Positions 30,096-34,806 of a stretch of 64,000 nt of DNA are shown piece by piece. The notes beneath the pieces were generated by a model, which saw only the letters and a list, made by a program, of their open reading frames with translations, searched no databases and had not been told where the DNA came from. The stretch's first letter is position 1; every line of letters starts with the position of its first letter. The stretch is taken from NCBI GenBank assembly GCA_021325515.1, contig JAJPHC010000013.1:126001-190000 (forward strand). The letters are read 5' to 3'. Source of the DNA: Acidobacteriota bacterium. GTDB taxonomy: Bacteria; Acidobacteriota; Thermoanaerobaculia; Gp7-AA8. Position numbers and translations under genes: made by a program.

Positions 30096-30117
30096 TGATC
30101 GGATCGAGGAAACTACG

Positions 30118-30759
30118 ATGGAAACACCGGATTCGGTTTCAATCCCGAAGCAGCCAGCCCATGTCGCCGACCCCGTCGCCCTTCCGGTCGATGAGTTCAT
30201 CGAAGGCGTGCGAAAGCTGTCTGAGGGCTTGATCACCAAACAGAAGATGTACGAGTTCCTCGTATCCTACTCCCTTCGCCGGGAAGACCTCGAGCGCTAC
30301 AAGCACTGGAATCCCGATCGCCACACGCGCAACAAGATCTTCCGCAACGACATGCTGGAAGTGATGATCATCTGCTGGCCGGTCGGAGTGAAGACGCCGC
30401 TGCACACGCACAACGGGCAGCTCGGCTGGATGTCGATGTACGAAGGGAAGCTGCTCGTCGAGAACTTCAAGAAGATTCGATGTAATGCGCCGGAAAACGA
30501 GCAGGTCGTCGGCATCGACTGCATCGCCGGCGCGACGAAGATCGAGATGCAGCACCTCGCCAACGAGCTCGCCGTTCCCGGCGGGCCGCTGAACACCGTC
30601 GACAAGACGCAGACGATTCACCGCATCCAGAATCTCGCCGAGTGGAACGAGCGCGCCGTGAGCATGCACGTCTATTCACGCCCGATCGACTCCTGCGTCG
30701 TCTTCGACATGGATGCGCAGACGTGTTATCGGCGGGATTTGAAGTACGACTACGAATAG
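30118..30759 (+). CDS. Cysteine dioxygenase family protein
   Basis: This is a 213-residue cupin enzyme. The iron ligands are visible as HTH in PLHTHNGQLGW and the later His in MHVYSRPID. The family oxidises cysteine to cysteine sulfinate with O2 and non-heme Fe(II). The N-terminal 20 residues (DSVSIPKQPAHVAD) are outside the domain. The ATG at 30118 has GAGGA 7 nt before it; a longer open frame upstream is not needed. The relation to the next gene, kbl, suggests amino-acid catabolism; an inverted repeat separates them. Confidence 0.88.
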   Translation: METPDSVSIPKQPAHVADPVALPVDEFIEGVRKLSEGLITKQKMYEFLVSYSLRREDLERYKHWNPDRHTRNKIFRNDMLEVMIICWPVGVKTPLHTHNGQLGWMSMYEGKLLVENFKKIRCNAPENEQVVGIDCIAGATKIEMQHLANELAVPGGPLNTVDKTQTIHRIQNLAEWNERAVSMHVYSRPIDSCVVFDMDAQTCYRRDLKYDYE

Positions 30760-32050: not shown

Positions 32051-33424
32051 TCAGCGCGCCGCGCGCCGCCGCGCCGGCGCCACCGGCTCGGTGATCCGCA
32101 CCACGCTCGCATTCCCCGCCGCATCCGATACCGCTGCGAGCCGCGTCTCGCCATACAACGCGATGCTGTTGTAGTGACCGATGAACAGCGCGTCGATCGA
32201 GAAGGGCGGTGTCACCGCCCACGCAGGCGCGAACGTCTCTCCACCATCGTGCGACACCGTCGCGTAGAGACGCGCCAGCGTGTTCCGCGGATCATCGCGG
32301 CGATCGAGCCAGGTGATCATCACGTCGCCTGTGATCGGATCCGTTGCGATCGCAGGAAGCACCGCATCGCGCTTGAGCGAGGCCGGCGCGGACAATCGCA
32401 CCGCCTTCGACCACGTCGCGCCGCCATCCGCCGATCGCACGAACCAGACCGATGCCGGCGGTGCGCCGCCCGGCTCGGAACCCGGATACGCGAGATAGAC
32501 GTTTCCGCGCCACGGCTTGTTCGAGACATCCACGGCCATCTGCTGCAGCACGTTCGCTGTCGCTTTCACGTTCGGCAGCGTCGTCGGATTGAGCAGCGAC
32601 ATCGGAACGCCTTTGCCCGCAGGCGTCAGCGTTGCCCCTCCATCGCTCGAGGTCTGCACGACGTAACCGATCCCGCCGCTGTGCGAGAAGTAAACGCGGC
32701 CGTCAGCGCCCGCCGCGACGAACGCGCATCCTGCGGAGCCGGTGGAGATCGGAGGCGTCCACGTGTGGCCGCCATTCGTCGAGTGCGACAGAAACATCTC
32801 CTGGCTCGTGTTCTTGTCGACGGGCAGCGTGCTGCGCAGCCAGGCGAGGTACACGGTTCCATCATGCTCGCCGCCCGAGTTGTCGACGGCGATCCACTCC
32901 TTGTCGTCGAACGGGAGCTTGCCGTTCGCGACCTGATACTCGCTCAGGGTGATCGTCTCCCACGTCTGCCCGTCGTCTGTCGAGCGGAAGAGGGCCATGC
33001 CCTCATTCGTCGTCCACTCGACGAAGAGCAGCGCGCAATACGCGACGCCGGTGCGATCGAAGGCGAGGACGGGATCGGCCTGCCCGCGATACGTGTGAGT
33101 CGCGAGCGAAAGCGGCAGCGGCACCGGATCCTTCCACGTCCTTCCACCATCCTCGGATCTGCGAATCTCGCAGCGGAAATACGTGTCGTCGATGTGGCGC
33201 ATCGCACTCGCGAGCACGATGTTCGGATTGGCCGGGGATATCGCGACCTGTGTTTCCCATGCGGGCGATGCGATGTGCCGGACCGTGTCGCTCTCTTCGA
33301 GAACTGGAAGCGGCGTTTCGAGCGCCATGGGCGCGCGCTCCATCTCGATCTCGAACGGCGTGCGCGGCGCGGCCGCACAGCCGCAGACGAGAAGTGCCAG
33401 CAGAAGGTTCCACGGATGTTTCAC
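32051..33424 (-). CDS. BNR/Asp-box lipoprotein (sialidase-like propeller)
   Basis: The 457-residue protein has a lipobox (LLVCGCAAAP). At least six Asp-boxes are seen: SEDGGRTW, STDDGQTW, STNGGHTW, SSDGGATL, SADGGATW and SHDGGETF. They indicate a six-bladed beta-propeller. The catalytic Arg triad of true sialidases cannot be recognised, so the substrate is unknown. It overlaps the LanC-like gene by 4 bp (ATGA) and follows it in one operon. Both are exported, and the propeller probably acts at the cell surface or periplasm. Confidence 0.85.
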   Translation of the reverse strand: MKHPWNLLLALLVCGCAAAPRTPFEIEMERAPMALETPLPVLEESDTVRHIASPAWETQVAISPANPNIVLASAMRHIDDTYFRCEIRRSEDGGRTWKDPVPLPLSLATHTYRGQADPVLAFDRTGVAYCALLFVEWTTNEGMALFRSTDDGQTWETITLSEYQVANGKLPFDDKEWIAVDNSGGEHDGTVYLAWLRSTLPVDKNTSQEMFLSHSTNGGHTWTPPISTGSAGCAFVAAGADGRVYFSHSGGIGYVVQTSSDGGATLTPAGKGVPMSLLNPTTLPNVKATANVLQQMAVDVSNKPWRGNVYLAYPGSEPGGAPPASVWFVRSADGGATWSKAVRLSAPASLKRDAVLPAIATDPITGDVMITWLDRRDDPRNTLARLYATVSHDGGETFAPAWAVTPPFSIDALFIGHYNSIALYGETRLAAVSDAAGNASVVRITEPVAPARRRAAR

Positions 33425-34806
33425 GGATTCACTCCCGAGAAGAAGTCCGACGGGCCGCTGCCGTTGTCCGCCTCATCGAGCTCGAGGAGAAAAAGGCCGA
33501 TGCCCGCCGCCCCCTCGTACCAGCCGGTCTGATACGCCGGCGCCGTGTCGCCGGGCTGCTGCGCATTCAATTGGTCGAGCCAGCGGCTCTGGCCCGCGGC
33601 GGGATGATCCGCGATGCTTTCCAGAAACGCGGCTGCCGCGTGCGCCTGCTGCAGATAGGCGGGATTCTTTTCGACGCGATAGAGGCGCAGGTACGTATGG
33701 CCGATCGATGCGGTGCCGGTGAGAAAGCCGGTGAAGTGATACGCGCTCGACGGGTCGTGATGCCAGGAGAGTCCGTTCGTCTGAGGCGCAGCCGCAGCAT
33801 CGATCCACGCCGCGGCTTTCACCGCCGCATCGCGATAGCGCGCGTCGCTCGTCACGACGAACGCATCCTCGAGCGCCGCGGCGACCGAGGCGACGCCGTG
33901 GCAATAGATCGTCGACGTCGCGGATGAAGGACCGTACTGCCGCCACGCGAGTCTGCCGTCATTCGAGTCGATCGCCGTGGCGAGAAAGCCGTTCGCCGTT
34001 CGGATCAGCGCATCGCGGTACGCCGCATCACCCGTCACGTCGTACAGTCGATGCAGAAAAAAGAGAATGCCCGTCGAGCCACCGCACCAGCCCGGATAGT
34101 CCACCTTGTCGGTCGTAAGCCGCTTCCAGGTGATCGCGTTCGTTCCGGCGTCGATGGAATAGCGCGAGGTCCAGTTCCACGCGCGTTTCGCGTAGTCGAG
34201 GTACGTCTGCTCTCGCGTCGCCTGGTAGAGATCGAGCAGGAAGATGCCGACGCCGGCGGGTCCGTGCGCGAGCCCCGTGTAGTCGCGCGTGAGCTGCGGC
34301 AGTGTCCAGTGGACGCCGTCGCCGCTGACGATCGCGTGCGCGATCAGCCAGTCGCCGTAGGCGCGTGCGCCGTTGACGTAGCGTTCGTCGCCGGTTTCCG
34401 AGTGCATCGCGAGCAGGAACTCTCCACAACCCGCTGCACCATTCAGCCAGTCGTACGAATCGATGCTCGTGCTGCGCGCTGCGACGTAGTTCGCCGCCTT
34501 CTTCGCCTTCTCCAGAAACGCCGTCTCGCCGGTGGCACGATAGAGACGGAGCAGAAAAAATCCGACGCCCGAAGCGCCGCCGTCGATCCCGGGTCCGGTG
34601 ACCGATGGGTTGTCTGACGAGTAGGCCCACGCAAGGCCGTCCGGCGCGACCGGGCGCTCCATGGCCGTGAGCCACGCAGCCGCTTCGCGTGCGAGGCGAA
34701 CGCTGCCCGATTCTGTGTGGTGCGGCGGGCTCGCGGCGCGGCGATGTTGTGCGTGCAGCGGAACAGCGAGAAAGAGAATCGCGACAGCAATACTTCGGTA
34801 CGGCAT
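33421..34806 (-). CDS. Exported LanC-like (lanthionine cyclase fold) protein
   Basis: The 461-residue protein has a signal peptide (VAILFLAVPLHAQ, residues 8-20) and seven repeats of the GxxGxxxFLLxLYxxTG type, as in the alpha/alpha toroid of LanC. The zinc ligands of LanC are conserved: Cys241 in GWCGGSTGI and Cys302-His303 in YCHGVAS. His181 in AHGPAGVG matches the catalytic His of LanC. LanC enzymes add Cys thiols to dehydroamino acids in the cytosol. An exported one with all these residues is unusual. No lantibiotic precursor or LanB/LanM is seen nearby. It may alternatively be a glycoside-hydrolase-like toroid. It is the first gene of an operon with the BNR lipoprotein. Confidence 0.8.
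   Translation of the reverse strand: MPYRSIAVAILFLAVPLHAQHRRAASPPHHTESGSVRLAREAAAWLTAMERPVAPDGLAWAYSSDNPSVTGPGIDGGASGVGFFLLRLYRATGETAFLEKAKKAANYVAARSTSIDSYDWLNGAAGCGEFLLAMHSETGDERYVNGARAYGDWLIAHAIVSGDGVHWTLPQLTRDYTGLAHGPAGVGIFLLDLYQATREQTYLDYAKRAWNWTSRYSIDAGTNAITWKRLTTDKVDYPGWCGGSTGILFFLHRLYDVTGDAAYRDALIRTANGFLATAIDSNDGRLAWRQYGPSSATSTIYCHGVASVAAALEDAFVVTSDARYRDAAVKAAAWIDAAAAPQTNGLSWHHDPSSAYHFTGFLTGTASIGHTYLRLYRVEKNPAYLQQAHAAAAFLESIADHPAAGQSRWLDQLNAQQPGDTAPAYQTGWYEGAAGIGLFLLELDEADNGSGPSDFFSGVNP

Follow-up and report, generated by a model that had tools for sequence, protein, structure and literature searches.

Two described groups of LanC proteins stand closest to the protein considered here. 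The class I LanC enzymes (PF05147), such as NisC, are seven-repeat alpha,alpha-toroids with an Asp/His/Cys/Cys-His residue set, and the eukaryotic glutathione transferases LanCL1 and LanCL2, which are not known to be secreted, are stand-alone toroids with the same zinc set and no peptide biosynthesis genes. The GH127 and GH146 arabinofuranosidases also fold as toroids. In NisC, zinc is held by Cys284, Cys330 and His331, and the H212 and D141 mutants bind zinc without cyclisation (PMC7296275). LanCL enzymes add glutathione to dehydroamino acids; in the scheme for LanCL1, zinc activates the thiolate, His219 is the acid, and His277 (Tyr285 in NisC) lies near the enolate oxygen, placed to stabilise the enolate (PMC9934072).

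The window analysed here is a stretch of 64,000 nucleotides from an Acidobacteriota genome. On its minus strand, two overlapping genes encode a LanC-like toroid (P0001) followed by a beta-propeller lipoprotein (P0002), both ORFs lying where the initial annotation had placed them (Table 1). The stop codon of the toroid gene and the start codon of the propeller gene share four nucleotides. Because of this overlap the two proteins are likely to be expressed jointly, and their genes may be translationally coupled, as had been stated before. The pair is flanked by a convergent class-II PLP enzyme gene and a divergent SNF2 helicase gene, with adenylosuccinate synthetase and cysteine dioxygenase genes also among the neighbours. 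As had been remarked, no gene for a lanthipeptide precursor or a LanB dehydratase occurs among the adjacent genes, a setting unlike that of NisC and reminiscent of LanCL1 and LanCL2. The window toroid is the sole PF05147 protein of its genome (5.38 Mb, 99.8% complete); PF04738 and PF13575 gave no match in it, but the controls were equally silent, so that genome-wide absence is not established. The cysteine dioxygenase is of type I (PF05995; window 30112-30756, plus strand) and sits beside the class-II PLP acyltransferase-like gene, near the LanC operon and convergent to it; a connection with thiol metabolism is conceivable, though nothing supports it.

Table 1. Coordinates of the toroid and propeller genes and of their main features within the window.
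Feature	Position	Strand	Basis
Exported LanC-like alpha,alpha-toroid P0001, 461 aa, ATG start, seven inner/outer helix pairs	33421..34806	-	PF05147, model, fold matches
Predicted Sec-type signal peptide of P0001, residues 1-19	34750..34806	-	Sequence; hydrophobicity; signals in homologues
Asp119, matching Asp141 of NisC; in repeat 2 (LanC: repeat 3)	34450..34452	-	Planctomycetota exported LanC alignment; NisC DVIEGLSG alignment
His181, proposed acid, matching His212 of NisC and His219 of LanCL1; in repeat 3 (LanC: repeat 4)	34264..34266	-	Alignment; role from PMC9934072
Cys241, predicted zinc ligand 1, matching Cys284 of NisC; in repeat 4 (LanC: repeat 5); followed by Gly242	34084..34086	-	Alignment
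Cys302-His303, predicted zinc ligands 2 and 3, matching Cys330-His331 of NisC; in repeat 5 (LanC: repeat 6)	33898..33903	-	Alignment
GTGA overlap of 4 nt, toroid-gene stop (TGA) and propeller-gene start (GTG, 33424)	33421..33424	-	Sequence
Asp-box beta-propeller lipoprotein P0002, 457 aa, GTG start	32051..33424	-	PF13088 52.6 bits; six Asp boxes; model
Predicted lipoprotein signal peptide of P0002, residues 1-16, lipobox VCG|C16	33377..33424	-	Motif reading in sequence

The homology of P0001 to the LanC superfamily is not in doubt. The LANC_like profile (PF05147) matches it with an E-value of 5.1e-35 and 121 bits against a curated cut-off of 23.2, and the AlphaFold model forms a complete toroid of 7+7 helices (pLDDT 78.9, pTM 0.83), with confidence below 50 at residues 289-302. 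The best solved structures for this model are, in order, CuvL, GCR2, LanCL2, LanCL1, MadC and NisC (Z 36 to 28), with the LanC region of CuvL at 36, LanCL2 at 32 and NisC at 28, followed by toroid glycosidases (GH47 at 27, GH76 at 21.6) and epimerases. Toroid glycosidases with acidic catalytic residues, which the initial annotation had named as the finding that would overturn its LanC-like assignment, thus match less well than LanC proteins, and the assignment holds. So does the signal peptide claimed for the protein: the N-terminus (MPYRSIAVAILFLAVPLHA|Q) reaches an 11-residue Kyte-Doolittle peak of 2.9, and homologues carry export signals as well. Cleavage would probably follow A19. Unlike NisC and other class I LanC enzymes, the toroid therefore bears a plausible Sec signal peptide, which would take it across the inner membrane and out of the cytosol to which LanC proper belongs.

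Each residue required in NisC has a counterpart in the window toroid. Asp141, His212, Cys284, Cys330 and His331 correspond to Asp119, His181, Cys241, Cys302 and His303, in unchanged order and in four consecutive repeats, where they lie in the motifs YDWLNGAAG, GLAHGPAG, PGWCGGSTG and IYCHGVAS. The aspartate was placed through a PDB sequence search, in which DVIEGLSG of NisC aligns with the Asp ahead of inner helix 3 in LanC proteins; counting back from His212 gives position 141. The histidine (AHG) and the two cysteine motifs (WCGG, YCHG) had been pointed out before, and they are found there and align with those of NisC. The protein contains only three cysteines (127, 241 and 302), in three different repeats and with no adjacent pair, and zinc would be bound by Cys241, Cys302 and His303. 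Three departures speak against thiol addition. Gly242 follows the first candidate zinc Cys, a place taken by His277 in LanCL1, by Tyr285 in NisC and by a His or Tyr in each of the 105 other LanC-like proteins counted; the counterpart of NisC Arg280 is lost (Tyr237); and Cys241 and Cys302 are 61 residues apart, against 44-55 in all other LanC-like ORFs parsed. Given Gly242 and the unusual cysteine spacing, the site may be altered or even dead.

A putative zinc-held cysteine in an exported toroid also brings glycan enzymes to mind. The GH127, GH88 and GH76 Pfam models all pass their cut-offs on P0001, and GH127 and GH146 use a zinc-coordinated Cys as nucleophile in a site of three Cys and one Glu (PMC10728902). 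The protein could then be an exported enzyme of this kind, with the propeller lipoprotein binding glycan at the cell surface; an extracellular place suits such work, some lectins and glycan lyases are propellers, and toroid glycosidases and epimerases are next in the fold ranking. However, the GH models score 51, 48 and 31 bits against 121 for LANC_like, the candidate metal set is Cys, Cys and His, joined by His181 and Asp119 as in NisC, rather than Glu and three Cys, and the adjacent genes checked include no carbohydrate-enzyme gene. This reading is distinctly unlikely.

The initial annotation knew of no described system of this form and in effect took it to be unique, but exported LanC-like proteins prove to be common in several phyla. 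A scan of the phylum returned LanC-like proteins that stand alone, measure 430-500 residues and carry export signals, and one large exported family (alignment A2), whose members are 45-63% identical to a reference member, shares the motifs SHGTAG, WCHGP and QCCG. Across 84,980 species genomes the A2 alignment detected 139 loci, of which 80 (L044-L123) were kept for analysis. Apart from a few in other groups, the loci belong to Acidobacteriota, Aminicenantes, Gemmatimonadota, Planctomycetota and Bacteroidota. One locus (L120, identical to L004; record QHVY01000358.1, 'Acidobacteria bacterium gp7 AA10') belongs to a genome of the window's own family. The N-termini carry Sec, lipoprotein or Tat-like signals, the last chiefly in Gemmatimonadota, and by a crude count a strong hydrophobic stretch precedes the toroid in 62 of 82 proteins of the exported type versus 2 of 20 of the cytosolic or LanM type. 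The His/Cys/Cys set is retained in nearly all exported relatives parsed. A second exported family, characterised by QCHG (alignment A4), comes from Planctomycetota, the phylum of one of the records. No published description of exported LanC-like proteins was found in the open-access literature; the QCCG family is apparently undescribed, and these wider families may be a more important find than the window protein itself.

The window toroid resembles both families. With the QCCG family it shares an export signal (Sec, lipoprotein or Tat in that family), an N-terminal AA.WL...G.aW, a C-terminal QTG...GAAGIG..LL.LD repeat and a Tyr at position -4 from the zinc Cys, at 24-28% identity; WCHGP and QCCG stand in repeats 5 and 6 of that family, whereas WCGG and YCHG stand in repeats 4 and 5 of the window protein. 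With the Planctomycetota family it shares a signal peptide and a Cys-His third motif (QCHG in that family); aligned in a shifted register, the two are 33-34% identical across some 290-320 residues. Members of the Planctomycetota family differ in having the site in repeats 4-6, His after the Cys and, for the most part, the Arg280 counterpart. Some relatives show further variation. In L138 (1468-3834), from a genome in the same phylum as the Planctomycetota record L045, the LanC domain is C-terminal to a part of about 430 residues that is gingipain-like by eye. LanC domains of the exported type also end long proteins at L019 (73-2520) and L069 (3956-8284), one of which has TPR-like repeats by eye. 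A Tat-exported relative at L041 (373-1926) has the His of SHG replaced (FEMGTAG) and possibly represents an inactive branch.

M19 peptidases are known for dehydropeptide cleavage, and one such gene (membrane/dehydro-dipeptidase) lies directly downstream of the exported LanC gene at L071 (8322-9656). In Gemmatimonadota a set recurs that consists of a PD40-amidohydrolase, an exported Tat-type LanC and a PLP-dependent decarboxylase, often with an M19 dipeptidase nearby (L093:3375-8302, L098:8284-9849, L079, L080-L083, L090). These neighbours point to amino-acid or peptide breakdown and give the best lead to a substrate, and they would suit an exported zinc enzyme of another chemistry, a hydrolase or lyase that acts on a peptide or amino-acid conjugate in peptide scavenging. 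Such neighbours are nevertheless absent from the window, and we know of no hydrolase in the LanC superfamily. For the window protein this chemistry is very unlikely.

What sets the window toroid apart is the position of its active site in the ring, a displacement that, like Gly242, the initial annotation had overlooked. The His/Cys/Cys motifs occupy repeats 3, 4 and 5, as opposed to 4, 5 and 6 in NisC and every other LanC-like member parsed, the latter position being a regularity among the members compared here and no part of the curated PF05147 definition. Two inner helices precede the His and two follow the Cys-Cys or Cys-His motif, compared with three and one in all others parsed; 181 residues lead up to the His, against at least 201 elsewhere, and 159 follow the last Cys, against at most 136. 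Each protein was also split into its seven repeats, and the window repeats were scored against repeat profiles at different offsets. The best offset was +1 both for the Planctomycetota exported LanC family (184.9 bits versus 121.7 at 0) and for cytosolic LanC (156.5 versus 88.6), while control comparisons among three families peaked at offset 0 in 6 of 6 cases, with clear margins. BLAST against L138 yielded 147 bits in the shifted register and 78 in the unshifted one, and hhalign chose the shifted register against the A4 alignment. Being based on the unshifted alignment A1, the AlphaFold model is silent on the register.

The QCCG family complicates this picture. Over the full length, the unshifted register scores better against it (200.4 versus 163.0 bits), as it does by hhalign, because the first and last window repeats match the ends of that family; for the middle repeats (3-5) the shifted register is still better (81.2 versus 64.4 bits, summed). 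The full-length preference could mean that the zinc set is partly convergent, and a fresh origin of the motifs in neighbouring repeats is less likely. On the simplest reading, the window protein is probably a relative of the QCCG family in which one repeat was lost on the N-terminal side of the active site and another gained on its C-terminal side. A simple circular permutation was rejected as the easiest explanation, because the last window repeat scores better against repeat 7 of the QCCG family than against its repeat 1 (35.1 versus 16.1 bits), and the first window repeat matches that repeat 1. Repeat loss and gain appears to fit better than such a permutation, without settling the ancestry.

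The shifted form appears to be isolated. No orthologue of the window type was found in 18 genomes of its own family, 149 of its class, 396 of its phylum or 294 of Planctomycetota (the phylum of G498, record L045), the best relatives inspected in these searches being of ordinary register, and when the window protein by itself served as query against named genomes, no relative was confirmed. In the tree the window toroid sits between clades on a long branch (1.81 changes per site). This isolation at family and class level, together with the long branch and the three departures at the site, is consistent with a degenerate exported toroid that is non-catalytic and serves the propeller as a binding or scaffold partner. 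In a dead enzyme, however, the NisC-essential residues should have decayed, and here the counterparts of all five are kept and two of the three cysteines of the protein are candidate ligands. Degeneration is fairly unlikely.

The partner P0002 is not a typical sialidase, and the earlier label 'sialidase-like' is too specific. Unlike GH33 sialidases, it has no FRIP motif (RIP/RLP) before its first Asp box or elsewhere in its sequence. Foldseek places sialidases first for its model (pLDDT 74.4), with low TM scores, while the best matches by VIA-align are seven-bladed, led by the CylK propeller (Z 33.9) and followed by lectins with seven blades (Z about 28). Other places in this genome, and other genomes, also encode related propellers, but none of the P0002 type stands beside the exported LanC genes at relative loci, so that the toroid-propeller pair is a local arrangement and its conservation in relatives is not supported. 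The idea of a conserved propeller partner was rejected: just 4 of the 762 ORFs around exported LanC genes, at 4 of 80 loci, are rich in Asp boxes, and they are of another type. At L062, L077 and L085 the Asp-box gene is adjacent to the LanC gene and encodes 892-1075 residues, at L063 it is further off, and the L085 protein, the one that was scanned, matches Sortilin-Vps10. As evidence for a partner these neighbours are weak.

The reading favoured here, tentatively and short of calling it probable, is a two-gene exported system in which a zinc-thiolate toroid adds thiols to electrophiles in the manner of LanC and LanCL enzymes. The toroid would be secreted across the inner membrane and hold one zinc through Cys241, Cys302 and His303. 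By lowering the pKa of a thiol in the substrate, this zinc would yield a thiolate that adds to an electrophile, either a dehydroamino acid or some other Michael acceptor; His181 would then protonate the enolate. The propeller lipoprotein would most likely hold or recognise a partner molecule. All of this would take place at a site lying one repeat nearer the N-terminus than usual, probably through loss of a repeat before it and gain of one after it. To our knowledge, no extracytosolic thiol or electrophile has been described for the source organism.

LanC chemistry is thought of as cytosolic, and exported LanC-like proteins with an intact metal set in at least five phyla make extracytosolic thiol addition a testable proposition. 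A more far-reaching view holds that the window protein is an exported LanC-superfamily enzyme whose whole zinc and catalytic set works one repeat off its usual place in the seven-fold toroid, and that it is one of a wide class of as yet undescribed enzymes carrying out thiol addition outside the cytoplasm; this is possible but rather doubtful. If it is true, losing and gaining repeats can carry a toroid's active site to a new place in the ring. The window protein is in any case a natural experiment in active-site displacement within a repeat-built barrel.
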